This document shows, piece by piece, positions 49,518-64,000 of a stretch of 64,000 bases of DNA. Under the pieces are notes generated by a model, which was not told where the DNA came from, ran no database searches, and saw only the letters and a program-made list of their open reading frames with translations. Made by a program: the position numbers and the translations under genes. Numbering within the stretch: position 1 is the first letter of the stretch; every line of letters begins with the position of its first letter. This DNA comes from Miltoncostaea oceani (GTDB lineage Bacteria > Actinomycetota > Thermoleophilia > Miltoncostaeales > Miltoncostaeaceae), in the NCBI RefSeq assembly GCF_018141545.1, contig NZ_CP064356.1, forward strand, positions 2,927,001 through 2,991,000, given 5' to 3'.

Positions 49518-49937
49518 CTACCTCTTCGAGTAGACGTCCCCGTCCCCGGCGCCGCGCACGGCGTGGACGGGGTGGCCGGCGGCCTCCCACTGGTAGTAGG
49601 AGCACGCGGGCCCGAACGCGGGCTCGTAGACGTCGGGGCGCGGGTTGCGGCCGACGTCGCGGGCGGCGGCGGCGTGGCGCAGGAGGCTCGGGTCGTCCAT
49701 CTCCGGCCAGACGATCACGAGGTGGGCGGCGGTGAGGAACCGGGCGACGAACGTGCAGCCGGGGGCGGGACACGGCCAGGGGTCGGTGCGGACGCAGTAC
49801 CAGCCGCTGTAGTCCTGGCCCGAGTCGTCGATCCAGAGCTCCTCGTCCTGGTCGACGTCGTCGTCGACGCCGGGGAGCGGCGGGGCGACGAGAGGGTCCT
49901 CGACCCCGGTACCGGGGCGTTCCGGACTCTCAGGCAT
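49518..49937 (-). CDS. hypothetical Cys/His-containing protein coupled to moaE
   Basis: 139 residues. Acidic start, then a Trp/Cys/His-rich region (GWYCVRTDPWPCPAPGCTF, AAHLVIVWPEMDD, ACSYYQWEAAGHPVH) that could bind a metal. No known family recognised. ATG 49937 overlaps the last eight bases of moaE, so it is translated with the molybdopterin synthase genes and may be linked to molybdenum-cofactor use; inference. Confidence 0.65.
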   Translation of the reverse strand: MPESPERPGTGVEDPLVAPPLPGVDDDVDQDEELWIDDSGQDYSGWYCVRTDPWPCPAPGCTFVARFLTAAHLVIVWPEMDDPSLLRHAAAARDVGRNPRPDVYEPAFGPACSYYQWEAAGHPVHAVRGAGDGDVYSKR

Positions 49938-50379
49938 GCGGGGTGCTCCCCTGTACGTGGGCGTGGTCCGTGGTGCATCCGTCGATCCAGGTGGTGCCGC
50001 CGTCGGCGTGGACCGTCTGCTTCCAGATCGGCGCCCGGGCCTTCAGCTCGTCGATGACGTACCGGCAGGCGGCGAACGCGGCGGGGCGGTGCCGCGCGGA
50101 CGCGGCGACGGCGACGCTGGGCTCGCCGACGGCGACCTCGCCGCGGCGGTGGACGACGGCGATCCGCGCGCCCCAGGCGCCCGCGGCCTCGGCGGCGATC
50201 GCCCGGAGCTCGGTGACCGCGAGCTCGTCGTAGGCCTCGTACCGGAGCGCGGCGACGGGCCGTTCGTCGCTCTCGCGGCGCGTGGTGCCGATGAAGGTGG
50301 CGATGCCGCCGTGCTCGGGGTCGGAGACGGCGGCGACGAGCGCGGCGTGGTCGATCGGCGTGTCGGTGAGCCCGATCAT
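49930..50379 (-). CDS. moaE: molybdopterin synthase catalytic subunit
   Basis: 149-residue MoaE, which with MoaD converts precursor Z (cPMP) to molybdopterin. ALRYEAYDELA, VVHRRGEVAVGEPSVAVAASARHR and the catalytic-Lys block LKARAPIWKQ are all family-specific. ATG overlaps the moaD stop (ATGA); its own stop is inside the next gene. moaA, moaC and others are not in the window. Confidence 0.93.
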   Translation of the reverse strand: MIGLTDTPIDHAALVAAVSDPEHGGIATFIGTTRRESDERPVAALRYEAYDELAVTELRAIAAEAAGAWGARIAVVHRRGEVAVGEPSVAVAASARHRPAAFAACRYVIDELKARAPIWKQTVHADGGTTWIDGCTTDHAHVQGSTPHA

Positions 50380-50633
50380 CCGCCGGACACCGGCAGGACG
50401 AGGGCGACCTCGTCACCGTCGCGCAGCGGCGCGCCGGGGAGGGTCCACTCGTGGTTGAGGGCGTACCGGACCCCCTCGGGCAGGCCGTGGCGGCGGACCT
50501 CGTCGGGGAGGTGGCTCCAGACCGCGCCGACGGGCGTCGCCGCGGGGAGCCGCAGCTCGACGCGGCCTGCGCCGGCGGCCTCCCGGAGCGACGCGAACAG
50601 GCGCACGCTCACCCTGATGCCGGCGTCGTCCAT
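50376..50633 (-). CDS. moaD: molybdopterin synthase sulfur-carrier subunit
   Basis: 85-residue ubiquitin-like protein ending in VSGG, whose C-terminal Gly-Gly carries the thiocarboxylate. VRLFASLREAAGAGRVEL is the first beta hairpin and helix, DGDEVALVLPVSGG the end. ATG 50633 has a leaderless-type box and no Shine-Dalgarno. Coupled to moaE by ATGA. Confidence 0.92.
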   Translation of the reverse strand: MDDAGIRVSVRLFASLREAAGAGRVELRLPAATPVGAVWSHLPDEVRRHGLPEGVRYALNHEWTLPGAPLRDGDEVALVLPVSGG

Positions 50634-50639
50634 CCGTCG

Positions 50640-50645
50640 ATGATA
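50640..50645 (-). promoter_or_regulatory. -10 element, leaderless-type, for moaD
   Basis: TATCAT on the minus strand, six bases before ATG 50633. Confidence 0.5.
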
Positions 50646-50715
50646 CCCACCGGCCATCCGGCGGCCCGGCCCGGACCCCCCATCTGTCCAGTAGGCCGGC
50701 ACCCGTCGCTTTTCG

Positions 50716-50721
50716 TACATT
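50716..50721 (+). promoter_or_regulatory. -10 element, leaderless-type, for lysyl-oxidase-like gene 1
   Basis: TACATT six bases before ATG 50728; this also favours the ATG over the GTG at 50725. Confidence 0.5.
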
Positions 50722-50727
50722 CGGGTG

Positions 50728-52329
50728 ATGCCGAAGCGAACCGCAATCCTCCCCCTCCTCGCGCTCGCCGCCTCCGCGGCCGCCGCCATCCCGATCATGG
50801 GCTTCGCGGCTCCCGCGAACTCCCTGCCGGACCTCCGGTCGGATCCCCCGACGCGGCCGATCCTCGACGACGTCGGCGACCGGTTGCTGCTGCGGTTCGA
50901 CGGCTACGTCACGAACGTCGGCTACGGGCCGCTGGACGTGACGGGCAACCCGTCCGCGAACCAGATGCGCCAGCGCCGCGCGAACGGCTCGGGCGGCTTC
51001 ACGGACGTGCAGGCGGTGCCGGTGAAGTACGAGACGGCGGACGGGCACAACCACTTCCACCTGATGAACGCGATGCGCTACTCGCTGCGCCGCGCCGACA
51101 GCACCGCCCAGGTCGCGCCGGCGCAGAAGGTCGGGTTCTGCCTCTACGACCTGAGCGACGCCGCGGGCGCGCCGGTGCAGGACGACCAGTTCTACGAGCC
51201 CACGAACTTCTGCCAGGTCGGCAACCCGTCCGCGACGTACCTCAGCATGGGCGTCTCCGCCGGATGGCGGGACGACTACTCGCGCGACCTCGCGCTGCAG
51301 TGGGTCGACGTCAGCAACACACCGCCCGGCGCGTACCGCATCGCCGCGGAGAGCGACCCCCTCGACGTCGTGGACGAGTCGAACGAGGGCAACAACGGCT
51401 TCGCCTTCACGAACTACACCCTCCCCGGTCACGTCGCCCAGCCGGTCGGCCCCGTCGCCGTCCCCGGCGGCGCGGGGGCGCGCACCGTCACGTTGAACGC
51501 GACGACCTACGGCGCGGCGGGGACCCGCGTGTTCCGCGTCACGGCGGCGCCGGCGCACGGCACCCTGAACGTCGCCGTCGGCCAGACGATCGCGGGCAAC
51601 CAGGTGCAGTACACGCCGGCCGCCGGCTACTCCGGCCCGGACAGCTTCCAGTACGTCGCGGCGAGCACCTCCGGCCCGGGGGCGGGCTTCCCGACGAACC
51701 CCGCGGCCGCGACGGCCTCGATCCAGGTGGGCCCGTCGGCGGCGGTGCCGACGGTCGCGATCTCCGGCGCACCGGCGAGCCTCGTCGCGGGCACGTCGGC
51801 GCAGCTGCAGGCGGTCGTCGCGCCGGCCGGCCCGGTGACGTGGACCGCGACCGCCGGCACCATCGACGCGAACGGCCTCTACGTCGCCCCGGGGACCCCC
51901 CCGCCGGGCGGCACCGTGACGATCCGCGCCACGAGCGTGGCGGCCCCGTCGGTCGTCGCGGAGGCGTCGATCGCGATCACGCCGATCCCGGTCCCGATCC
52001 CGACGCCCGGCGGCGGCGCGACCGGAGTCCCGGGCCCGGGCCCGGGCGGGGCGACGCCCGGCCTGATGTCGAAGCCCCGGGTGACGCGGGGCGGCCGGAT
52101 CGTCGTCGTGCGCACGACCCCGCGCGCGAACGGGCGGATCCTCGTCACGGCGATCCGCGGCGGCAAGGCCGTGTCGCGCTGCCGGATCGCGGCGCGGGCC
52201 GGGAAGCGCGCGACGTGCCGGGTGCGCCTGCCCGCCCGGTTCGCGAAGGCCCCGGTGCGCGTCGCCGTGAAGCTCTCCGCAGCGGGCGGCCAGAAGGCCG
52301 TCGCCGGCGCCCTGGTGCGGGCCCGCTAG
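50728..52329 (+). CDS. secreted lysyl-oxidase-like protein 1 with Ig-like domains
   Basis: 533 residues. Signal peptide about 1-28. Lysyl-oxidase-like domain (about 35-230): Cu ligands DGHNHFHL (His107, 109, 111), Lys134 in AQKVGFCLYD and Tyr184 in GWRDDYSRDLALQWVDVSNTPPGAY. Aligned from memory to human LOX these match the H-x-H-x-H copper site and the Lys320/Tyr355 pair that forms lysyl tyrosylquinone. Then a beta domain (about 240-335), a BIG/Ig-like domain (about 340-425), a Pro/Gly linker, and a basic C-terminal strand-rich domain with two Cys. Predicted extracellular amine oxidase, perhaps cross-linking surface proteins. Paralogue at 58138. Confidence 0.85.
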   Translation: MPKRTAILPLLALAASAAAAIPIMGFAAPANSLPDLRSDPPTRPILDDVGDRLLLRFDGYVTNVGYGPLDVTGNPSANQMRQRRANGSGGFTDVQAVPVKYETADGHNHFHLMNAMRYSLRRADSTAQVAPAQKVGFCLYDLSDAAGAPVQDDQFYEPTNFCQVGNPSATYLSMGVSAGWRDDYSRDLALQWVDVSNTPPGAYRIAAESDPLDVVDESNEGNNGFAFTNYTLPGHVAQPVGPVAVPGGAGARTVTLNATTYGAAGTRVFRVTAAPAHGTLNVAVGQTIAGNQVQYTPAAGYSGPDSFQYVAASTSGPGAGFPTNPAAATASIQVGPSAAVPTVAISGAPASLVAGTSAQLQAVVAPAGPVTWTATAGTIDANGLYVAPGTPPPGGTVTIRATSVAAPSVVAEASIAITPIPVPIPTPGGGATGVPGPGPGGATPGLMSKPRVTRGGRIVVVRTTPRANGRILVTAIRGGKAVSRCRIAARAGKRATCRVRLPARFAKAPVRVAVKLSAAGGQKAVAGALVRAR

Positions 52330-52345
52330 ACCCCGCGGGCACCGT

Positions 52346-52379
52346 CCGCGCGCGGCGCCCACCCGGGCGCCGTGCGCGG
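52346..52379 (+). terminator. 15-bp hairpin after lysyl-oxidase-like gene 1
   Basis: CCGCGCGCGGCGCCC (52346-52360), loop ACCC, GGGCGCCGTGCGCGG (52365-52379), one G-T pair, 17 bases after the stop. Confidence 0.7.
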
Positions 52380-52533
52380 GTCCCGCCGCGCCGTCGCGGG
52401 GTGTCCGCGGGGTTCTGCGCAAACGCCAGAACTACCCTACCGGCCAGGTTTCCTGTCGCCGGTGGGGAGTTAGTCTCGCCCCCCCTGAAGGTCCGGTCGC
52501 CACGCCGGAGCATCGCCCCGGAGAGGATCACGA

Positions 52534-53955
52534 ATGCGCGTCGCGCGCCCGCTCGTCCCCGTGCTCATCGCGTTCCTGGCCCTCGCCGGCCCGGCGGTCG
52601 GAGCGGAGAGGTCGGGCGGTCTGTTCGACGCCGCGGGTGACGTCACGAGCGCCGACGGGTTCGCCCGCCCCGATGTCGCGGAGTTCCGCGTCGCGACGGA
52701 CCCCGACACCGGCTCCCTGGTCACGTCGGTCCGCTTCCACCAGCCCGTGCCGCGCACGCAGGGCGGCCGGTCGACGGCGTTCAAGGTCGTCTACAACGTG
52801 GGCCGCGCCGCGCCGCAGGGCTACTGCGACTGGACCCACACCGGTGACCTCGGCGTCCGGATCGACGTGGTCCGCGCACCGGACGGGGACTACATCCTCC
52901 AGACCGCCACCCCCCGCGGGGGCGCGGACGTGGTCGACAACGCCGCGGGCGCGTTCAGCGCGGACTCCACGACCCTGACCGTCGTGACCGCGCGGAGCCA
53001 GTTCGCCGGCCGCGACTTCACGTGCGTCTCGCCGACGCGCGTCACCTACGAGCCGTTGACCGGCTCGGACGAGGTCGCCGAGTTCTTCTTCGCCGGCTTC
53101 GCCCCGCCGCCGCCGCCGCCGGACAGCCAGCCGCCGGCGATCCGGTGGGAGACCCCCTCGACGGGCGCCACCATCTCCGGCGTCTACAGCGAGGGCGGCC
53201 AGAACGGCTCGAAGGTCTGCCGCATGTCCGCGAGCGACAACGTGCGGGTCAACCGGATCGAGATCTTCGTCGACGGCGTCCCCACCGAGATCCAGCGGTT
53301 CGCGCCGTGGGGTTGCGAGATCGACACCCGCAAGCTGTCGGAGGGGTCGCACCTGCTGCGCGCCGACGCCTACGACGAGGCCGGCAACAAGACGTCCACC
53401 ACCATCCCGGTGACGGTCCGCAACTCCGGCGTCGCCCCGCCGCCCCCGCCGCCGCCCGTCGTCATCCCGCCCGACGCGACCCCCGTGCAGCCGCCTCCCC
53501 CGATCGTGGTCATTCAGGATGGTCCGCCGCCGCCGCCTCCGCCTCCGCCGGCGCCCTTCGTCCCCACGATCATCTCGCGGGCCGACTCCCTGCTGCGATG
53601 CACGGTCGTGAACGGGAGGACCCGCTCATGCGTCGTCCGAAAGGTCGCGCGCCTCAGCGTCCGCCTCACGCGCGAGACCGGCGGCCTCCTCAAGGACACG
53701 AGCGGGAAGATACGTCTGCGCGTCGCCTGCTCGCCGGCCAAGGCCTGCGGCGGGCGGTCTGTCGCTCTGCGCAGCGCGGCGCCCAAGGTCAGCTCTCTGG
53801 TCGGCGGCCGGGTCCTCTCGGTCGGAACGCGCATCGACTTCCGGATGACGCGCACCGGTGCGACCGGCGCGCTCATCCGGGTGAAGATCACGCGTCTGGG
53901 TGTGCGGACCAAGGTCTGCGCGCTCCGTGACGGCGTCCCCGTCTCGTGCGGGTAG
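52534..53955 (+). CDS. secreted beta-sandwich protein with poly-proline linkers
   Basis: 473 residues, unrecognised as a whole. Signal peptide 1-24 (VPVLIAFLALAGPAVG-A). First domain (about 28-190) contains paired Cys and resembles an adhesion/carbohydrate-binding beta sandwich; an Ig-like domain (about 200-305) has DNVRVNRIEIFVDG...DTRKLSEGSHLLRADAYDEAGN, common in bacterial surface proteins; poly-Pro stretches (about 306-350) lead to a C-terminal basic domain with four Cys (LLRCTVVNGRTRSCVVRK..., ending VCALRDGVPVSCG) resembling the tails of the lysyl-oxidase-like proteins. GGAGAGG seven bases before the ATG. First gene of a four-gene run. Confidence 0.75.
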   Translation: MRVARPLVPVLIAFLALAGPAVGAERSGGLFDAAGDVTSADGFARPDVAEFRVATDPDTGSLVTSVRFHQPVPRTQGGRSTAFKVVYNVGRAAPQGYCDWTHTGDLGVRIDVVRAPDGDYILQTATPRGGADVVDNAAGAFSADSTTLTVVTARSQFAGRDFTCVSPTRVTYEPLTGSDEVAEFFFAGFAPPPPPPDSQPPAIRWETPSTGATISGVYSEGGQNGSKVCRMSASDNVRVNRIEIFVDGVPTEIQRFAPWGCEIDTRKLSEGSHLLRADAYDEAGNKTSTTIPVTVRNSGVAPPPPPPPVVIPPDATPVQPPPPIVVIQDGPPPPPPPPPAPFVPTIISRADSLLRCTVVNGRTRSCVVRKVARLSVRLTRETGGLLKDTSGKIRLRVACSPAKACGGRSVALRSAAPKVSSLVGGRVLSVGTRIDFRMTRTGATGALIRVKITRLGVRTKVCALRDGVPVSCG

Positions 53956-54302
53956 CACCGCGCGCACTCGCCGCCGGCCTGGCGGTGCTCGCACTCATCG
54001 CCTTCGTCGTGGCGTTCGGCGTGACGCGGTCGTTGGAGGACGGCGGGGACGACGCGGCTGGAGCCGGACCATCGGCGGCCGCTTCAGCACCCGAGGCCGT
54101 GACGCTCGCGGACCAGCGGATCCCTCGTCTGGACCCCCTGGGAACGCTCCCCCCGCTCCGGCGCCGGCCGCCACCGCCCGTCGCGTCACCGGTGCCCGAG
54201 CAGTCCGCTCCGACGCCGGCGGTGACGCCGCCGACGCAACCGACTGCGCCGCCGACCCAGACTCCGCCCGCGCCGGACACCGGCGTCGAGGACTTCGAAT
54301 GA
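53946..54302 (+). CDS. single-pass membrane protein with Pro/Thr-rich exterior
   Basis: 118 residues: basic start, one TM helix (about 8-26, AAGLAVLALIAFVVAFGVT), then an extended Pro/Ala/Thr-rich region ending in DTGVEDFE. No known domain. GTG 53946 overlaps the preceding gene by ten bases, and the next gene starts 58 bases on after a GGAGG. The form suggests a wall-spanning stalk or small partner of the neighbouring protease or kinase; inference. Confidence 0.7.
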   Translation: MRVAPRALAAGLAVLALIAFVVAFGVTRSLEDGGDDAAGAGPSAAASAPEAVTLADQRIPRLDPLGTLPPLRRRPPPPVASPVPEQSAPTPAVTPPTQPTAPPTQTPPAPDTGVEDFE

Positions 54303-54360
54303 CCGCCGACCGCCTGCGACGGGCGCCGTCGCACACCACTCCTCCAGGAGGACACACACG

Positions 54361-55776
54361 ATGTGGCTGACGATCCGGACCCCCGGCGCCGACGAGAGGA
54401 CCGTCCGGGTCACCGGCGACCGCTTCCTCATCGGCCGTGACGAGGGTTGCGACCTCGTGCTGGACGACCCGCTGGTCTCCCGTGAGCACGCGGCGCTGAC
54501 CGTCTCGGGCGACGACGTCGAGCTCACCGACCTCGGATCGTCCAACGGCACCCGCCTCAACGGCAAGATGGTCCACGGATCCACGCCGGTCGCGTCCGGT
54601 GACGTGATCGAGATCGGGGACTCCGAGATCACGGCACAGAAGGCCGGCTCCGCCCCCGGGACCGTCGTCCGCTCGGCGTACGCCGCGTCGCGCCACCTCG
54701 AGCCGGAGGTCGTGGACGAGGACCGCAGCGGGAGGAAGTTGCCGCTCGTGATCGCCGGCGGCGTCGCCCTGATCGCCGGGTTGGCCGTGCTCGGCCTGTT
54801 CCTCGGTGGTGCGTTCGACGGCGACGACGAACTCTCCGACGTGGTCGAGGACGCGCGCGCCTCGGTCGTGGTCGTCAACGCCTCCAACGGGGCCGGGGAC
54901 GGCGGGACAGGGTCCGGCTGGGTGCTCGACGCCGCGCAGGGCCTGATCGTCACGAACCACCACGTCGTCAACGCCGGAAACCTGTACACGGTCTCCGTGC
55001 GCTCCGGCGAGCCGGCGGCAGGCGCGGAGGACAGCCCGCTCGAGGAACGCGACGCCGAACTCGTCGGCACGGCGCCCTGCGAGGATCTCGCGGTGCTCCG
55101 CACGTCGCCCGAGGGTCTCCGTCCCCTGCTGATGTCGAGTCAGGCCGACGTGCGTCAGGGGGACCAGGTCACCGCGCTCGGGTTCCCCGGCACCGAGTCG
55201 GACCGCATCGACTACGTCCAGACCACCGGGACGGTCTCGGACGTCCGCACGTCGTTCTCGAACAGGAAGCTCCGGATCGGCGTCCCCGACCTCCCGAACC
55301 TGATCCTCACCGACACGACGTTCAACCCGGGCAACTCGGGTGGCCCCCTCGTGGACGCCGAGGGCCGCGTGGTCGGGGTCGCGACGGGAAGCCGCGGCTC
55401 CCAGAACTACGCGATCGGCGTGGACCGCGTGAAGGAGATCACCGATCAGCTGCGTCGCGGCGTGTCCATCGGCTGGACGGGCCTCGGACTGGACTTCGAC
55501 CCCGCCCTCCGCGGCGCGATCGTCACCAACGTCGTGCCCGGGACCCCCGCCGCCGCCGCCGGCATCGAGGCTCCACAGCTCCTGACGGCCATCGAGCGGC
55601 CGCGCACCGACCCCGACCGGATCCGTGGGACGCTCGCGGACTACTGCGACGCCGTCGGCAGCCTCGAGCGCCGCCAGAGCTTCACGGTCCGCCTGCTCCC
55701 GCTGGAGACGGACCCGGACGGCGGCTACCGCCTGAGCGGCGAGGGGCCGACGCGGGTCCGGATCTCCCTCAAGTGA
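54361..55776 (+). CDS. FHA - transmembrane - trypsin-like (HtrA type) - PDZ protein
   Basis: 471 residues. FHA domain (about 20-78) with phosphothreonine-binding marks FLIGRDEGCD, SREHAAL, LGSSNGTRLNG; linker; TM helix about 128-150; chymotrypsin-fold protease (about 158-365) with triad His201 (TNHHVV), Asp242 (CEDLAVL), Ser326 (NPGNSGGPL); PDZ-like C-terminus (GAIVTNVVPGTPAAAAG). Topology implies FHA inside, protease outside. A Ser/Thr kinase gene follows after 25 bases, so the FHA domain may read its phosphorylation and pass the signal to the protease. GGAGG precedes the ATG. Confidence 0.9.
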   Translation: MWLTIRTPGADERTVRVTGDRFLIGRDEGCDLVLDDPLVSREHAALTVSGDDVELTDLGSSNGTRLNGKMVHGSTPVASGDVIEIGDSEITAQKAGSAPGTVVRSAYAASRHLEPEVVDEDRSGRKLPLVIAGGVALIAGLAVLGLFLGGAFDGDDELSDVVEDARASVVVVNASNGAGDGGTGSGWVLDAAQGLIVTNHHVVNAGNLYTVSVRSGEPAAGAEDSPLEERDAELVGTAPCEDLAVLRTSPEGLRPLLMSSQADVRQGDQVTALGFPGTESDRIDYVQTTGTVSDVRTSFSNRKLRIGVPDLPNLILTDTTFNPGNSGGPLVDAEGRVVGVATGSRGSQNYAIGVDRVKEITDQLRRGVSIGWTGLGLDFDPALRGAIVTNVVPGTPAAAAGIEAPQLLTAIERPRTDPDRIRGTLADYCDAVGSLERRQSFTVRLLPLETDPDGGYRLSGEGPTRVRISLK

Positions 55777-55801
55777 GCCGCGGCTCGCGGACGGCATAGC
55801 C

Positions 55802-57868
55802 GTGCCCCCGCGTCGCCGGCCGAGCGCCCCCAAGCCCCTGACGCTGGGGGGCGCCGTCGCCGGGCGCTACGAGCTCCGCGAACTGCTCGGGGACGGTGCG
55901 ATGGGGAGCGTCTACCGGGCCTTCGACCGCGACCTCGAACGCGAGGTGGCGGTCAAGGCGATGCTGCCCGCGCTCGCGGGCGACCCCGAGTTCGTCGGAC
56001 GGTTCCAGCGGGAGGCACGGGCGCTCGCGCGCCTCCGCCACCCGAACATCATCGGGGTGCACGACCTCGTGAAGGTGCCCGAGGGCGGGCTCTTCCTGAT
56101 CCTCGAGCTCGTTCGCGGACGGTCGCTCCACGAGGTGATCGCGTCCGAGGCACCCCTGCCGTGGAGCCGCTGCGCGGACATCGGCATCCAGGTCGGGGCC
56201 GCCCTCGCGGCCGCCCACGAGGCAGGCGTCGTCCACCGCGACATCAAGCCCGGGAACATCCTGATCGAGGAGACGGGCGCCGCCCGGGTCGCCGACTTCG
56301 GGGTCGCCCGGCTGGCCGAGGGCGGCGGGGGCACACGCACCGGCTCGATGATCGGCACCCCCTCCTACACCTCGCCGGAACAGGTGGAGGGACGGGCGGC
56401 GACGCCGCAGGCGGACATCTACAGCCTGTGCGTCGTCCTGTTCGAGGTCGCGACCGGAAGCCCGCCCTACGACGCGTCCGAGGGGTACCGGGCGGTCGCG
56501 CTGCAGCACCTCGCGAGCCCCGTGCCGGACCCCTGCGAACGCGAACCGACCCTCCCGGCCGCCGCCGGGGCGCTGATCGTGCGGGGGCTCCAGAAGGACC
56601 CGGGGGACCGGTTCGCGGACGCGGACGAACTCGTCGCCGCCCTGCGCGAGACCCGCGATCTGCCGCAGCTGCGCCGGCCGCGGCCCGTCGCGCCGCCGAC
56701 GGTCATCCGCCCCCCCGACCCGGAGGATGCCGCCGGCCCCGGGCCGCCGCCCGACGTCCCGCCGCGCGCGTCGTCGCCCGCGCCCGTCGCGGCGGAGCCG
56801 TACCGGGAGCCGGAGCCGGCCCCACCCGCGGAGGGCACCGTCCATCGCCCAGCCGCCCGGGAGGGCGCCGTGACCCCGGGGACGGTCGTGCGGCCGACGC
56901 GGGACGAGGAGGCACCGCCGGCGCGGGAGCCGGGCAGGCGCCATGGCGCGGCGGCCTGGCTGGCAGGGGCGCTCGCGGTCGCTGCGGTCGCCGCGATCGC
57001 CGGGCTCCTCATCGGGCGTGGACCGGAGCGGGAGCCGGCGCCCGCAGCCGCGCAGACCATCCAGACGGCGGGTGTCGAGACGCGCCTCCCGGCGGGGTGG
57101 ACGCCGGTCTCCGCGACGATCCCGGGCGTCAGCCTCGCGCGCGGCGCGAGCTACGCCCCGGTGGACGGACCGGCGGCCGGCCTCGTCATGGTCGGACGAT
57201 CCCGGGGGACGGGACCCACGCTCCTGCCGCCGTCCCTGCTGCAGCGGCTCCGGGAGGTCCCGGACGACGGCGAGGCCGTCGATCTCGGCGGCGCCCAGGC
57301 AGTGTCGTTCACCGGCCTGCCGGCGACGGGCATCGGGACCGACATGACCGTCTTCGCGGTGCCGACCGGCGACGGCGTCATCACCGTCGCCTGCCAGGCG
57401 GCGCCGGACCACACCGCCCAGGTCGCCGCCGCCTGCGACACCGCGGCCACCTCGCTGGATCTCTCCGACGACCGGGTCTACGCGCTCGATCCGTCGCCCG
57501 CGTACGCCCGGGCGGTGCAGGGTGCGCTGACCCCGCTCACACGCGCACGCGCGGCCGGTCTCGCGCGCCTGCGCGAGGCGCGGCTGCCGGAGCCCCAGGC
57601 GGCCGCGGCGTCGACGGTCGCCGCCGCCCACCGACGCGCGGTCGCCGCGCTCCGGCGCGTCGATGCGGGGCCCGGCCCCGGCCCCGCCCACCGTTCGCTG
57701 ATCGTGTCGGTATCGCGCGGGGGCACGGCATTCGCACGGATGGCGTCCGCCGCGGCCGGGGAGGACCGGGCGGCGTACGACGCCGCGCGACGGGATGCCG
57801 CGGCGGCGGACCGGGACCTGCGCGCGAGCCTCGAGCGCCTCGCGCAGCTGGGGTACGCCCCGGGCTGA
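55802..57868 (+). CDS. transmembrane serine/threonine protein kinase (Pkn2/PASTA-kinase-like, no PASTA)
   Basis: 688 residues. Kinase domain about 22-285: Gly loop LGDGAMGSVYRAF, Lys52 (VAVKAML), HRDIKPGN (Asp147), DFGVAR (165-167), activation loop with GTRTGSMIGTPSYTSPEQ. Pro-rich juxtamembrane (290-380), TM helix about 384-405, extracellular part (410-688) of a mixed domain (LPAGWTPVSATIPG...) and a helical C-terminus (PLTRARAAGLARLREARL...), not PASTA repeats. GTG start, last gene of the FHA-protease run. Confidence 0.9.
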   Translation: MPPRRRPSAPKPLTLGGAVAGRYELRELLGDGAMGSVYRAFDRDLEREVAVKAMLPALAGDPEFVGRFQREARALARLRHPNIIGVHDLVKVPEGGLFLILELVRGRSLHEVIASEAPLPWSRCADIGIQVGAALAAAHEAGVVHRDIKPGNILIEETGAARVADFGVARLAEGGGGTRTGSMIGTPSYTSPEQVEGRAATPQADIYSLCVVLFEVATGSPPYDASEGYRAVALQHLASPVPDPCEREPTLPAAAGALIVRGLQKDPGDRFADADELVAALRETRDLPQLRRPRPVAPPTVIRPPDPEDAAGPGPPPDVPPRASSPAPVAAEPYREPEPAPPAEGTVHRPAAREGAVTPGTVVRPTRDEEAPPAREPGRRHGAAAWLAGALAVAAVAAIAGLLIGRGPEREPAPAAAQTIQTAGVETRLPAGWTPVSATIPGVSLARGASYAPVDGPAAGLVMVGRSRGTGPTLLPPSLLQRLREVPDDGEAVDLGGAQAVSFTGLPATGIGTDMTVFAVPTGDGVITVACQAAPDHTAQVAAACDTAATSLDLSDDRVYALDPSPAYARAVQGALTPLTRARAAGLARLREARLPEPQAAAASTVAAAHRRAVAALRRVDAGPGPGPAHRSLIVSVSRGGTAFARMASAAAGEDRAAYDAARRDAAAADRDLRASLERLAQLGYAPG

Positions 57869-57931
57869 GGGACGCCCAACCAGGACGGATCGGCGGTACG
57901 CGCGAAATTCACAAATGGTTCATGTGATGTC

Positions 57932-57962
57932 CGGGGGGAACACGGGGCGCCGGGACCCCCCG
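57932..57962 (+). terminator. hairpin after the kinase gene
   Basis: CGGGGGG (57932-57938), 17-base loop, CCCCCCG (57956-57962). Weak because of the large loop. Confidence 0.35.
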
Positions 57963-57997
57963 AAAGTCGTGTTTTACGGGAGGTCGTCGCGTCCTAG

Positions 57998-58064
57998 CGT
58001 GTGCCGGGCCGGTGGCGGACCCGACCCCGGCCTGCACCGACGGGGGGTCCCCCGGCGGCACACG
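57998..58064. repeat. 9-bp inverted repeat spanning 67 bases upstream of lysyl-oxidase-like gene 2
   Basis: CGTGTGCCG (57998-58006) and CGGCACACG (58056-58064), with GGGGGGTCCCCC inside. Just upstream of the promoter box at 58070; regulator site or structure. Confidence 0.35.
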
Positions 58065-58069
58065 ACTCG

Positions 58070-58075
58070 TAGGGT
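58070..58075 (+). promoter_or_regulatory. -10 element, leaderless-type, feeding an 18-codon leader ORF
   Basis: TAGGGT six bases before ATG 58082. Confidence 0.45.
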
Positions 58076-58081
58076 CCATTC

Positions 58082-58138
58082 ATGACGCAACGCCCGTGCC
58101 CATGGCCGGCAAGCCGAACACCCGAGGACATCGCCTGA
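58082..58138 (+). CDS. 18-codon leader ORF overlapping the start of lysyl-oxidase-like gene 2
   Basis: Opens at a leaderless-placed ATG, encodes MTQRPCPWPASRTPEDIA and stops at TGA 58136-58138, which overlaps the downstream ATG (TGATG). Translation of the leader would deliver ribosomes to the oxidase start. No amino-acid bias suggests attenuation. Existence as a peptide is unproven. Confidence 0.35.
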   Translation: MTQRPCPWPASRTPEDIA

Positions 58139-59829
58139 TGCAGACGGACACTCACGAGAACCCGAACCGCACCGAGACTCCTCGGCCGTCGCGCCGGCCC
58201 CGGCGGGCGGTGCTCGCCACCCTCGGCGTCGCCGCCGCGGCCGCCGCCGGCCTCACGGTCCTGGCGACCACCGTCACCAGCGCGCCGAACCTCCCGGACA
58301 TGATCTCGGAGGCCCCGGGCGCGCCCGGCACCCAGATCTACCGCGACGGCCGCCTGCTCGTCCGGTTCGACGGCTTCGTCACCAACAGCCCGAGCGCCCC
58401 CGCGCCCCTCGAGATCCGCGCCCTCAACCCGAACGGCGCCGGGATCATGCAGAGCGTCCAGCAGCGCGTCGGCGGCGCCGCCGTGCCGCCCCCCGCCGGG
58501 GTCCCGCCGACGGTGCGCTTCGAGGTGGCCGACGGCCACAACCACTACCACCTCAAGAACGCCGCCGAGTACACCCTCTGGACCGCCGACCAGACCCGGC
58601 AGGTCGCCCTCGCCCAGAAGACCGAGGCCGGGTTCTGCCTCGAGGACTCCGAGGCCCTCCCCGGCGCCCCCGGCGGCCCCGTCTACAGCTCCGGCTCCAA
58701 CGACTTCTGCCGCGACGTCCCCCTCGTCATGGGCATCAGCGCCGGCTACCGCGACATCTACTACGCGGGCCTCAGCTACCAGTGGATCGACGTCTCCGAC
58801 GCCGCCCCCGGCCGCTACCGCCTCGCGAGCCGCGTCGACCCGACCAACGTCATCGCCGAGGCCGACGAGTCGAACAACGGCTACGCCTTCCGCGACGCCG
58901 TCGTCCCCGGCTACATGCCGCGCGCCGTGAGCGTCCCCCGCGTCGACCCCGGGCAGACGGCGCCCGTCACCCTCAGCGCCGAGCGGTTCGTCAGCACCTG
59001 CTTCGACGGTGACTTCAACCCCGACCCCGGCGACTCGCCCTACTGCAGCCCCGGCTCCGTCCGGTACCGCATCACGTCCGGCACCAGCCGCGGCGTCCTC
59101 AAGCAGGGCGGCGCCACCCTCTCCGTCGGGTCCGTCCTGACGAACGGCGCCATCACCTACACGCCGAACGCCGGCCAGCGCGGCGCCGACTCCTTCACCT
59201 ACGAGGCGTACGACTCCACGCAGACCACCTTCCCGCGGACGCGGCCCCAGGCCGCCGTCGCCATCCAGGTGGGCGCGCCGATCACGTCCGTCGCGATCTC
59301 CGGGGCCCAGGCCAGCATCGTCGCCGGGCTGTCGATGCAGCTCAGCGCCGTCCTCACCAACGGCCCCTCCGGCGTCACGTGGACGACGACCGCCGGCACC
59401 ATCACCCCCGCCGGCCTCTTCACCGCCCCGGCGACCGCCGGCACCGCCGTCGTGCGGGCCACCAGCAAGGACGACCCCTCGGTGTTCGCCGAGGTCTCCA
59501 TCCGCGTCGACGCCGCACGGGTCCAGGGCCCCGCACCGACCACGCCCTCGATCCTCCGGAAGTTCGCCGTCGGCCGGGTCGGCAAGAAGGTCATCGTGAC
59601 CAAGGTCACCGCCGGGCCCCGCAAGGGCACCCTGCGGACCACCGCGACGTTCGGGAAGAAGGTCGTCGGTCGCTGCGCGAAGCCGGTGAAGGCCGGCAAG
59701 ACCGTCACCTGCAAGATCACGCTGAAGCGGGTCTACAACCTCAAGAAGGTCAAGGTCACGGCGAAGTTCACCGCCGCGGGCAAGACGACGGTCCGCCGGG
59801 CCTTCGTCATCCCCGCCAAGCGCCGCTAG
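58138..59829 (+). CDS. secreted lysyl-oxidase-like protein 2 with Lys-rich tail
   Basis: 563 residues. Basic N-terminus and hydrophobic signal (about 24-47). Lysyl-oxidase-like domain (about 50-245): DGHNHYHL (His134, 136, 138), Lys161 in AQKTEAGFCLED (FCLED is identical to animal LOX), Tyr208 in AGYRDIYYAGLSYQWIDVSDAAPG, all consistent with a copper/quinone amine oxidase. Then a beta domain (about 260-380), a BIG-like domain (about 385-460) and a tail with 18 of the protein's 22 Lys. ATG 58138 preferred because of the TGATG overlap with the leader ORF; ATG 58102 is an alternative. Paralogue of the gene at 50728. Confidence 0.87.
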   Translation: MQTDTHENPNRTETPRPSRRPRRAVLATLGVAAAAAAGLTVLATTVTSAPNLPDMISEAPGAPGTQIYRDGRLLVRFDGFVTNSPSAPAPLEIRALNPNGAGIMQSVQQRVGGAAVPPPAGVPPTVRFEVADGHNHYHLKNAAEYTLWTADQTRQVALAQKTEAGFCLEDSEALPGAPGGPVYSSGSNDFCRDVPLVMGISAGYRDIYYAGLSYQWIDVSDAAPGRYRLASRVDPTNVIAEADESNNGYAFRDAVVPGYMPRAVSVPRVDPGQTAPVTLSAERFVSTCFDGDFNPDPGDSPYCSPGSVRYRITSGTSRGVLKQGGATLSVGSVLTNGAITYTPNAGQRGADSFTYEAYDSTQTTFPRTRPQAAVAIQVGAPITSVAISGAQASIVAGLSMQLSAVLTNGPSGVTWTTTAGTITPAGLFTAPATAGTAVVRATSKDDPSVFAEVSIRVDAARVQGPAPTTPSILRKFAVGRVGKKVIVTKVTAGPRKGTLRTTATFGKKVVGRCAKPVKAGKTVTCKITLKRVYNLKKVKVTAKFTAAGKTTVRRAFVIPAKRR

Positions 59830-59841
59830 CGGAACCCGGTC

Positions 59842-59874
59842 GCGCGGCCCGGCGTCCATGACGCCGGGCCGCGC
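59842..59874. terminator. perfect 15-bp hairpin between convergent genes
   Basis: GCGCGGCCCGGCGTC (59842-59856), loop CAT, GACGCCGGGCCGCGC (59860-59874). The strongest terminator-like stem in the window. Confidence 0.75.
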
Positions 59875-59895
59875 CGGGCCCCGCCCGCACCGTCG

Positions 59896-61278
59896 TCACG
59901 CCGCCGGGTAGGGCTCGTCCCGGCCGCGGTCCTCGTCGATGTGGGGGACGCGCCCGACGAGGGGGAAGGCGCGTTGCGGACACGCGTCGCGTTCGCAGAG
60001 GCGGCACCCCGGGCCGATCGGGACCGTCGTCGCCGGGTCGGACAGCGCCAGGCCCCGTGAGTACACGAGGCGCGGTGCGTGCCGGATGTCGCACCCCAGT
60101 GCGACGGCGAACTGCACCTGCGGCTCGCCGAAGCCCCCGATCGGCCGCCCGATGGCGCGCGCGATCCAGAGGTACGTCCGGCCGTCCGGCATCTGGGCCA
60201 CCTGCGTGATGAACCGCCCCGGGGAGGAGAACGCCTCGTAGACGTTCCACAGGGGGCAGGTGCCGCCGATGCGGGAGAAGTGGAAGTCCGTGGCCGAATG
60301 GCGCTTCGAGATGTTGCCGGCGCGGTCGACCCGCACGAAGAAGAACGGGACGCTCGAGGCGCCGGGCCGCTGCATCGTGCTCAGCCGGTGGCAGACGGTC
60401 TCGATGCTGACGCCGAAGCGGGCGCTCAGCAGCCCCACGTCGTACCCCGTCTCCTCCGCGGCGGCGAGGAACGCGCGGTAGGGCAGCAGGACCGCCCCCG
60501 CGAAGTAGTTCGCGAGACCCACCCGCGCCAGGGCGCGCGACTCGTCACCGGACAGCCCCGGGACGGCCGTCAGGGCGTCGAGCGTCGCGGCGTGCTCGAG
60601 CAGGCACCACTGCACCGCGAGCTGGAACGTGCGCCGGGCGCCCTCCCGCCGGCGCGGCAGGTGCAGGGTGCGGGTCGCCCGGTCGAAGCGCCGCCGGTCG
60701 CGGAGGTCGTCGTCGATGACCACCCGGACGCCGTGGCGCTCCGCGAGCAGGCGCGGCAGGTCGGCGGCGGGGAGCACCTCGGCGGCGTCGTCGAGCTCGG
60801 GGAAGTGGTTGTGGTTGTCGTAGACGTAGTCGAGGACCTCGTCGTACGCGATGACGGGCAGCCGCTCCCCGAGCGGCAGCCGCGCGCCGAGCCCGATGGC
60901 CATCTCCTCCACGCGCCGGCGGGCGTCCCCGGCGCGCCGGTGCAGGACCACGATGGCCTTCGCCACCGCCGGGAGGTCGGTGACGAGGTCGCGGACCTCC
61001 GCGTCGGTGACGCGTTCCTCCACGCCGGCCGCGGGGTCGCTCAACGCGATGTGGACGTCCGAGACCAACCGGGCGCCCTCGTCCTCGGAGACCGCGTACG
61101 CGTCGAACCCGACGGCGGCGTTCAGGCGCAGGAGCACGGGGACCGTGAGGGGGCGCTGGTTGCGCTCGATCTGGTTCAGGTAGCTCGGCGAGATCTCGAC
61201 GAGGCGGGCGAGCGCCGCCTGCGTCAACCCCCGCTCCTCACGCGCCCGCCGCAGCTGCGCACCGACGAACATCCTCAT
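59896..61278 (-). CDS. short-chain acyl-CoA regulator, RamB/MccR type (XRE-HTH)
   Basis: 460-residue transcription regulator. XRE helix-turn-helix (about 6-62, RRAREERGLTQAALARLVEISPSYLNQIERNQR), middle ImmA/IrrE-related region (RTFQLAVQWCLLEH), C-terminal ScfR domain with a Cys cluster CRLCERDACPQR that may bind metal or a ligand. RamB and MccR control acetate and methylcitrate/propionate genes. Divergent from an acyl-CoA carboxylase operon, which is the likely target. ATG 61278 used (61272 possible). TTCGCAA and TTTGCAA motifs lie just upstream. Confidence 0.9.
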   Translation of the reverse strand: MRMFVGAQLRRAREERGLTQAALARLVEISPSYLNQIERNQRPLTVPVLLRLNAAVGFDAYAVSEDEGARLVSDVHIALSDPAAGVEERVTDAEVRDLVTDLPAVAKAIVVLHRRAGDARRRVEEMAIGLGARLPLGERLPVIAYDEVLDYVYDNHNHFPELDDAAEVLPAADLPRLLAERHGVRVVIDDDLRDRRRFDRATRTLHLPRRREGARRTFQLAVQWCLLEHAATLDALTAVPGLSGDESRALARVGLANYFAGAVLLPYRAFLAAAEETGYDVGLLSARFGVSIETVCHRLSTMQRPGASSVPFFFVRVDRAGNISKRHSATDFHFSRIGGTCPLWNVYEAFSSPGRFITQVAQMPDGRTYLWIARAIGRPIGGFGEPQVQFAVALGCDIRHAPRLVYSRGLALSDPATTVPIGPGCRLCERDACPQRAFPLVGRVPHIDEDRGRDEPYPAA

Positions 61279-61286
61279 TCGCAGAC

Positions 61287-61333
61287 TTCGCAACCCCGGC
61301 CCCCCGCCTTTGCAACCCTGCACTAGCAGTGCA
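61287..61333. promoter_or_regulatory. candidate operator region for the RamB/MccR-type regulator
   Basis: TTCGCAA (61287-61293) and TTTGCAA (61309-61315), 22 bases apart, then the palindrome TGCACTAGCAGTGCA (61319-61333). RamB sites reported in Corynebacterium contain TTTGCAAA-like cores (from memory). Confidence 0.4.
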
Positions 61334-61528: not shown

Positions 61529-63091
61529 GTGAGCGCCGGGGACAGGATCGACCAGCTCCACCGCCTCCGCGAGGAGGCCCTGCACGCCGGCACCGAGGCC
61601 GCCGTCCAGCGGCAGCACGACCGCGGCAAGCTGACGGCGCGCGAGCGCATCGAGCTGCTGGTCGACCCGGACAGCTTCGTCGAGCTGGACATGTTCACGC
61701 GCCACCGCGCACACGGCTTCGGCCTGGAGGACACCCGCCCCTGGGGCGACGGCGTCATCACCGGCCACGGCACCATCGACGGCCGCCGCGTCTTCCTGTT
61801 CAGCCAGGACTTCACCGTCTTCGGCGGCAGCCTCGGCGAGGTCTTCGCGGAGAAGATCGTCAAGGTCATGGACATGGCCGTGAAGATGGGCTGCCCGCTC
61901 ATCGGCATCAACGACTCGGGCGGCGCGCGCATCCAGGAGGGCGTCGTCAGCCTCGGCGGCTACGCCGACATCTTCTTCCGCAACGTCCGCGCGAGCGGGG
62001 TCATCCCCCAGATCTCCGTGATCATGGGACCGTCCGCCGGCGGCGCCGTCTACAGCCCCGCGATCACCGACTTCATCTTCATGGTGCGCGAGACGAGCCA
62101 CATGTTCATCACCGGCCCGGAGGTCATCAAGACCGTCACCGGCGAGGACGTCACCATGGAGGAGCTCGGCGGGGCCCAGAGCCACGCCACGAAGTCGGGC
62201 GTCGCCCACTTCGCCGCCGACTCCGAGCAGGACTGCCTGGAGATGGTGCGCGACCTCTTCTCGTACCTGCCGCAGAACAACCTCGACCCCGCGCCGTTCC
62301 TGGCGACGGCCGACCCCGTGGACCGGGCCGAGCCGGAGCTCGCGACGATCGTCCCCGACGTCGCCACCAAGCCGTACGACATGACGCACGTCATCGAGCT
62401 GATCGTGGACGACGGCGACTTCTTCGAGGTCGCCCCCCTCTACGCCCAGAACATCGTCATCGGGTACGCCCGCCTCGCCGGCCACGTCGTCGGCGTCGTC
62501 GGCAACCAGCCGAAGGCCCTCGCCGGCGTCCTCGACATCGACGCGTCCATCAAGGCCGCGCGCTTCGTGCGCTTCTGCGACGCGTTCAACATCCCGCTCG
62601 TGACGCTGGTGGACGTGCCGGGCTTCCTGCCCGGGACGACCCAGGAGTACAACGGGATCATCCTCCACGGCGCGAAGCTGCTCTACGCCTACGCCGAGGC
62701 CACGGTCCCCAAGCTCACCGTCATCACCCGCAAGGCGTACGGCGGCGCCTACGACGTCATGTCGAGCAAGCACGTCGGCGGCGACTTCAACGCGGCGTGG
62801 CCCACGGCCGAGATCGCGGTCATGGGGGCCGAGGGGGCGGTCAACATCGTCTTCCGGCGCGAGCTGCAGGAGACCGAGAAGGCCGGCGGCGACGTCGCGG
62901 CCCGGCGTGCCCAGCTCATCGCCGACTACACCGAGCGCTTCGCGAACCCGTACATCGCGGCCGAGCGCGGCTACATCGACGCGGTGATCGACCCGCGGGA
63001 GACGCGCGGCTGGCTCATCCGCTCGCTCGAGACCGCGCTCACCAAGCGCGAGCTGCGGCCGCGGCGCAAGCACGGGAACATCCCGCTGTGA
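61529..63091 (+). CDS. pccB: acyl-CoA carboxylase carboxyltransferase (beta) subunit
   Basis: 520-residue biotin-dependent carboxyltransferase of propionyl/acetyl-CoA carboxylase. [17 protein letters not shown] near the start, [14 protein letters not shown] and [16 protein letters not shown] (acyl-CoA oxyanion site), [19 protein letters not shown] and [14 protein letters not shown] (biotin-binding half). Full-length and typical of PccB/AccD5 type; acyl specificity is not decided. GTG 61529; its stop overlaps the next gene (GTGA). Likely controlled by the divergent regulator. Confidence 0.93.
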
Positions 63092-63342
63092 GCGGTGGGG
63101 GGTGGACGGCGTACACGCCCCGGTCGGCGCCCCTGCGCGTCACGGCCGGCGGTGTCCCGTCCCCGCGCCAGCTCGCGGCCCTGACGGCCGCGCTCACCAC
63201 CCTCGTCGAGTCGGAGCGGCCCGTCGCCGCCGACCCGCTGCCCGCCGCCTACCGCTCGCGCTGGCGCCGGGCCGCGCTCATCGAGTCGAGCGAGGTCCCG
63301 CTCAACGTCAAGGACGTCGGTCCGCCCTGGGGAGTCCACTAG
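63088..63342 (+). CDS. acyl-CoA carboxylase epsilon-like small subunit
   Basis: 84-residue protein placed between beta and alpha subunits. Pattern [25 protein letters not shown] followed by a Trp/Arg region ([13 protein letters not shown]) matches the AccE/epsilon proteins of actinobacterial carboxylases, which stabilise the complex. The C-terminal end ([12 protein letters not shown]) is longer than I recall for the family. GTG overlaps the pccB stop by four bases; the next start follows its TAG immediately. Confidence 0.75.
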
Positions 63343-64000
63343 ATGCCGTTCAGCAAGGTGATGGTCGCCAACCGCGGCGAGATCGCGATCCGCGTCTTCC
63401 GGACGCTGCGCGAGATGGGGATCCCGTCGGTGGCCGTCTACAGCGAGGTCGACCGCGACGCCCTGTTCGTGGGCTACGCCGACGAGGCGTACCTGCTGGG
63501 TCCCGGCCCGGCGAGCGAGAGCTACCTCAACATCCCGCGCATCCTGGAGGTCGCCGCCGAGGCCGGCGTCGACGCGGTCCACCCCGGCTACGGGTTCCTG
63601 GCCGAGAACGCCGGGTTCGCCCGGGCGCTCGGCGAGGCCGGCATCACCTGGATCGGCCCGCCGCCGGACGCGATCGACGCGATGGGCTCCAAGACCGGGG
63701 CGCGCGCCCTGATGGACGCCGCCGGCGTCCCGATCGTCCCGGGCGTCACCGACCCGGTGCCCGACCTGGAGGCCGCGCGGCCCATCGCCGACGACATCGG
63801 CTACCCGGTGGCGGTGAAGGCCGCGGCGGGGGGCGGCGGGAAGGGCTTCCGCGTGGCGCTGACCCCGGACGAGCTGCCCGGCGCCTTCGAGGGGGCCCGC
63901 GGCGAGGGCGAGCGGTTCTTCGCCGACGGCACCGTGTACCTGGAGCGGTACCTGCCGCACCCCCGGCACGTCGAGATCCAGGTGTTCGCCGACACGCACG
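63343..64000 (+). CDS. acyl-CoA carboxylase biotin carboxylase (alpha) subunit, cut by right edge
   Basis: First 219 codons of the biotin carboxylase/BCCP subunit. SKVMVANRGEIAIRVFRTLREMG, HPGYGFLAENAGFARA, GPPPDAIDAMGSKTGAR, AVKAAAGGGGKGFRV (ATP glycine loop) and the start of the ATP-grasp lid YLPHPRHVEIQV are all present; the C-terminal biotin-carrier part lies beyond the window. ATG 63343 directly after the stop of the small subunit gene. Completes the carboxylase operon. Confidence 0.92.
   Translation, partial: MPFSKVMVANRGEIAIRVFRTLREMGIPSVAVYSEVDRDALFVGYADEAYLLGPGPASESYLNIPRILEVAAEAGVDAVHPGYGFLAENAGFARALGEAGITWIGPPPDAIDAMGSKTGARALMDAAGVPIVPGVTDPVPDLEAARPIADDIGYPVAVKAAAGGGGKGFRVALTPDELPGAFEGARGEGERFFADGTVYLERYLPHPRHVEIQVFADTH

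Follow-up and report, generated by a model that had tools for sequence, protein, structure and literature searches.

Lysyl-oxidase-like genes and a putative kinase/FHA-protease operon share one locus in Miltoncostaea oceani

Introduction

The actinobacterium Miltoncostaea oceani carries, within the 64,000-nucleotide stretch of DNA analyzed here (designated as the window), two genes for secreted lysyl-oxidase (LOX)-like proteins, LOX1 and LOX2, which flank genes for an Ig-like protein, a Pro-rich membrane protein (ProR), an FHA-TM-HtrA protease, and a TM Ser/Thr kinase. We consider it likely that two independent functions, a LOX array and a kinase–protease operon, share this one place. Judging from the same locus in relatives, the arrangement is probably a lineage-specific neighborhood, peculiar to a few species, and not a single conserved machine.

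Both LOX and FHA-trypsin proteins have been described in bacteria before, and we know of no role for bacterial lysyl oxidases. The locus described here shows that, in a Thermoleophilia family, bacterial LOX genes form lineage-conserved tandem arrays whose products are secreted multi-domain proteins, and it makes a genetic test possible. Prokaryotic LOX proteins (PF01186), the carriers of which include Actinobacteria, have conserved catalytic residues (Grau-Bove et al. 2015, PMC4448552), and HTU-LOX from Haloterrigena turkmenica, once refolded with copper, oxidizes amines with relaxed specificity (PMC6452851). The combination of LOX, kinase, and FHA-protease genes had been thought, from the sequence alone, to be undescribed in bacteria, and we found no described system of this kind in the literature searched, which lay mostly outside subscription journals.

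Results

The six genes were all found in the proposed order on a single strand by open reading frame and Pfam analyses (Table 1). The block is not a chance reading, because the same order recurs in a second genome of the genus (G003). The window genome (G000; 4.54 Mb, three contigs, approximately 75% GC) has five places that match PF01186. A ScfR-type regulator gene (HTH, Peptidase_M78, ScfRs) lies on the minus strand at 59896–61300 of the window, between LOX2 and the carboxylase genes, where G002 (same genus) and G003 have a methylmalonyl-CoA mutase gene.

Table 1. Features of the LOX locus (window coordinates)
Feature	Position	Strand	Description
moaE + moaD, upstream anchor	49930..50798	-	NCBIfam best matches MoaE/MoaD, below cut-offs
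LOX1	50725..52329	+	Secreted lysyl-oxidase-like protein; PF01186, 43.0 bits
Hairpin after LOX1	52344..52419	+	GC-rich, strong, no T-run; -81 kcal/mol, z -6.2
Ig gene	52534..53955	+	Secreted, bacterial Ig-like domain Big_7; PF17957, 3.2e-07
Pro-rich membrane protein gene (ProR)	53946..54302	+	Short, single-pass; ORF
FHA-TM-trypsin/HtrA-PDZ gene	54361..55776	+	FHA, 1.3e-19; Trypsin_2, 1.6e-25; PDZ weak
TM Ser/Thr kinase gene	55802..57868	+	Pkinase, 5.4e-48; HRD, DFG, and VAVK intact
LOX2	58012..59829	+	Secreted lysyl-oxidase-like protein; PF01186, 55.2 bits
Hairpin after LOX2	59840..59875	+	No T-run; z -3.2
Acyl-CoA (propionyl-CoA-type) carboxylase beta subunit, then biotin-carboxylase subunit, downstream anchor	61529..64000	+	PF01039, 2.7e-208

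Both LOX proteins exceeded the curated cut-off of PF01186 (20.4 bits), while an NCBIfam search gave no family name for them or for the Ig and Pro-rich proteins. LOX1 consists of a LOX domain, a Big_9-like domain, and a C-terminal beta domain. The copper motif H-x-H-x-H, which is invariant in the family alignment, reads HNHFH in LOX1 and HNHYH in LOX2, and the cofactor Lys/Tyr pairs are K135/Y185 and K203/Y250, respectively (LOX2 is numbered from the GTG at 58012; the ATG at 58138 is the more likely start). The Lys and Tyr residues of both proteins aligned with the human LOXL2 segment in an alignment of family LOX domains, and they form, together with the three copper histidines, invariant columns in two family LOX alignments. 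The initial view that both oxidases keep the copper site and the quinone-forming pair was therefore upheld. As a caveat, the Lys is followed immediately by two additional residues in the LOX2 clade (K-TE-AGFC versus K-V-GFC; window 58612–58650), so that the cofactor geometry in LOX2 is less than certain. Two G002 LOX copies have similar insertions (K-NT/NY-AGFC). AlphaFold models of LOX1 and LOX2, at 21–22% identity to LOXL2 (5ze3), fitted this structure at 3.0 and 3.7 Å, respectively, over about 230 columns, and both modeled proteins share the LOX fold.

In a phylogenetic tree, LOX1 fell in one group with the LOX protein encoded at this locus in G002 and those of G016 and G011, the wider group being moderately supported; judged from this placement, LOX1 is the ortholog of the LOX gene at the same locus in relatives. 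LOX2 clustered with the two copies of G003 and with a solitary paralog at G000:1697872. We rejected LOX2 as a local duplicate of LOX1, because the two fall in different clades. Among the sampled genomes, members of the LOX2 clade are confined to the window genome and G003, which are also the only carriers of the intervening module, and LOX2 may have arrived with, or near, that module.

LOX1 is separated from the Ig gene by 204 bases, whereas the Ig and ProR genes overlap by 10 bases and the following gaps are 58 bases (ProR to FHA-HtrA) and 25 bases (FHA-HtrA to kinase); the kinase–LOX2 gap is 143 or 269 bases, depending on the LOX2 start chosen, and contains an AT-richer stretch. The strong hairpins noticed after LOX1 and LOX2 were confirmed as well above shuffled sequences. 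A terminator scan missed both because they have no T-run. The stretch from the kinase gene to LOX2 showed no unusual structure (z 0.0), and a sigma-70 promoter scan gave no match, as expected at 75% GC. The hairpin after LOX1 is a putative transcript boundary, and the gap sizes and hairpins together suggest three transcript units, namely LOX1, Ig–ProR–FHA-HtrA–kinase, and LOX2. Read-through from the kinase gene into LOX2 is possible, since no strong hairpin separates them.

The phosphothreonine-binding residues of the FHA domain, G25 R26, S40, H43, and N62 (GR, SxxH, N), are invariant in eight relatives, and the protease triad H201, D242, and S326 (GNSGGP) is invariant among the relatives aligned; the PDZ_2 match (20.4 bits) is below its 27-bit cut-off. 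Our literature search for an FHA-protease/kinase system gave only a protease survey of 2008 (PMC2605481), which includes an FHA-FHA-Tryp fusion from Bacteroides thetaiotaomicron (NP_811686.1). Both this protein and that of the window have FHA sequence N-terminal to a trypsin-like protease, but the window protein has one FHA domain, a TM segment, an HtrA-like protease, a weak PDZ match, and an adjacent kinase gene. The kinase has the layout of PknB-type TM Ser/Thr kinases, with a kinase domain, a juxtamembrane Pro-rich linker, one TM segment, and an extracellular part. It scored 310 bits against the PknB/Stk1 PASTA family NF033483 (cut-off, 450), with the kinase part alone matching. In contrast to PknB-type kinases, no PASTA repeats were found with Pfam or NCBIfam, and its extracellular domain matched no family in either collection.

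The FHA-HtrA protein has a 69% identical ortholog in G003 and 37–50% identical paralogs elsewhere. Most of the family has a paralog that stands by itself, and the block copies form their own long branch in the tree, apart from these stand-alone copies. Full-length relatives of the kinase were found in G009, G018, and G006, all away from LOX. Of 17 related FHA-HtrA genes, 5 have a Ser/Thr kinase gene within 8 kb, versus 2 of 66 LOX loci, and in G010 the kinase and FHA-HtrA genes share a strand, with reading frames that overlap by a few bases. In a Fisher test against 40 LOX loci of other families, kinase proximity to FHA-HtrA gave p = 0.007 (0.057 when the two block genomes are left out); with these values and the small sample, the comparison lends modest support to a kinase/FHA-protease pairing. 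The sequence-only reading suggested that the FHA domain could read kinase phosphorylation and control the outside protease. The tight spacing, intact residues, and kinase neighbors make this plausible. As a separate observation, G169 (L121, 9844–17381) has several FHA-domain genes with starts of the MWLT/MWCS type, one being an FHA-HtrA fusion; this cluster adjoins a Ser/Thr kinase gene, without LOX, and is a possible FHA-kinase relay island.

At the same locus in G003, between moaD/moaE and the carboxylase gene, the order is LOX1, Ig, FHA-HtrA, kinase, and two LOX2-type genes, with 55–69% protein identity to the window block (kinase, 61% over full length); the Pro-rich gene was not identified in this block, where about 440 bases take its place. 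An ortholog of the Ig protein (58%) was found only in this block, and paralogs (36–39%) occur elsewhere in G000 and G003. The surrounding genes extend further into the family: moaE/moaD occupy the same position in G003, G002, and G009, and a carboxylase gene is near LOX on a single contig in eight genomes of the family. On one contig, G002 has moaE, moaD, one LOX1 relative, methylmalonyl-CoA mutase, PCCb, and PCCa. The order is moaE–moaD–LOX–LOX–PCCb in G009 and g140–three LOX genes–PCCb in G006. With both flanks read, the kinase, FHA-protease, and Ig genes are absent from the LOX site in G002, G006, and G009. LOX adjoins PCCb in G018 and G011, with no kinase or FHA gene seen on those contigs; it lies about 3.4 kb from PCCb, by coordinates, in G020, and a LOX1 relative is next to moaD at a contig end in G001. 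No relatives of the FHA-protease (E 1e-20), Ig protein (1e-6), or kinase (1e-60) were found in G001 and G002. LOX genes thus occur at this site independently of the kinase–protease run, and relatives of the kinase and FHA-protease occur elsewhere without LOX, both of which contradict the joint system proposed at the outset.

A wider survey gave the same picture. Among 249 genomes of the class, 80 have LOX and 14 have an FHA-HtrA gene (E 1e-40). By coordinates, only G000 and G003 have the two together; one further case in G000, a weak LOX about 12 kb from a stand-alone FHA-HtrA copy, we regarded as a coincidence because no counterpart is present beside that gene in G003. Outside the block, we collected 86 LOX loci in Actinomycetota (66 + 20), several of which end at contig ends; a Ser/Thr kinase gene is near 2 of these 86 loci, and an FHA-protease fusion is near none, several loci being cut short in this way. 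Co-occurrence of LOX, FHA-trypsin, and kinase genes across the actinobacterial genomes sampled was limited to two genomes. HtrA matches near LOX in three genomes of another Thermoleophilia family (G136, G225, and G213; L163, L159, and L155) were discarded as independent support: their surrounding genes recur, so they count as one case, and the protein that was tested, from G136, is a MarP protease (NF033740, above cut-off). A MarP-type membrane serine protease gene adjoining LOX in a recurring gene context is a neighborhood unrelated to the window block.

Discussion

In this Thermoleophilia family (Miltoncostaeaceae), we interpret the locus between moaD/moaE and the propionyl-CoA carboxylase genes as the site of an array of putative secreted LOX-family copper amine oxidases. 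At the cell surface, these enzymes probably oxidize primary amines, be they lysine side chains or others, and the resulting aldehydes would form cross-links between surface proteins or feed into amine breakdown. Between LOX1 and LOX2, the lineage comprising the window genome and G003 has a predicted four-gene operon (Ig, Pro-rich, FHA-TM-HtrA, and TM kinase), which most likely encodes a phosphorylation-controlled envelope protease: the kinase would sense something outside the cell, the cytoplasmic FHA domain would bind phosphothreonine on the kinase or a partner, and this binding would position or gate the protease outside. The further suggestion that the protease processes or matures the LOX enzymes found no support.

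Some observations speak against the independence of the two functions. Two species retain the order of the block despite protein divergence, so the neighborhood has lasted; the LOX2 clade and the module share the same two sampled genomes, and LOX2 may have come with the module; and transcription may continue from the kinase gene into LOX2. Animal LOX proteins are matured by proteolysis. A joint system limited to this lineage, in which LOX2 was acquired along with the operon and is itself matured, or has its substrates matured, by the kinase-gated protease, would draw on the shared distribution, the lack of a strong hairpin, and the location of LOX2 immediately after the kinase gene in both genomes. 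We nevertheless regard it as unlikely: a LOX2-clade paralog stands alone at G000:1697872 with no kinase nearby, the 143–269 bases with their AT-richer stretch split the kinase gene from LOX2, and the proposal draws on two genomes and no processing-site evidence. That in these two genomes a TM kinase and a phosphothreonine-reading envelope protease control the maturation or substrates of a dedicated LOX2 is, in our estimation, quite improbable. If true, such control would give these bacteria a system for cross-linking cell-surface proteins in response to a signal and, to our knowledge, the first signaling link for a bacterial LOX, but the comparative evidence disfavors it.

It is very doubtful that the module was ancestral at the locus and lost in other genera. 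Relatives of the kinase and FHA-protease do exist in several genera of the family, but they occupy other loci and, G010 excepted, do not lie close together; several separate losses would be needed, and the block FHA-HtrA copies branch on their own. One six-gene system in which the kinase-controlled protease would act on both LOX enzymes is hardly credible in spite of the single strand, the intact residues in every part, and the order kept in G003, since LOX1 relatives and LOX arrays stand without the module at the same site elsewhere, as G002, G006, and G009 largely refute it, and since the strong hairpin after LOX1 and the 204-base gap set LOX1 off from the rest.

Under the preferred reading of two independent functions, the LOX array can be compared with known prokaryotic LOX proteins. 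The window proteins have the same domain, three-His copper motif, and cofactor Lys and Tyr as those described previously, but they differ in their extra Ig-like and C-terminal beta domains (mostly LOX-only architectures have been reported), in the tandem arrays of the family, and in the two-residue insertion after the Lys of LOX2 (PMC4448552). HTU-LOX is likewise a prokaryotic LOX, but it is archaeal and encoded by a single gene; the native role is obscure for both (PMC6452851). Elsewhere in the phylum, G498 (L170, L171, L178, and L179) has five LOX genes, which apparently represent an independent expansion.
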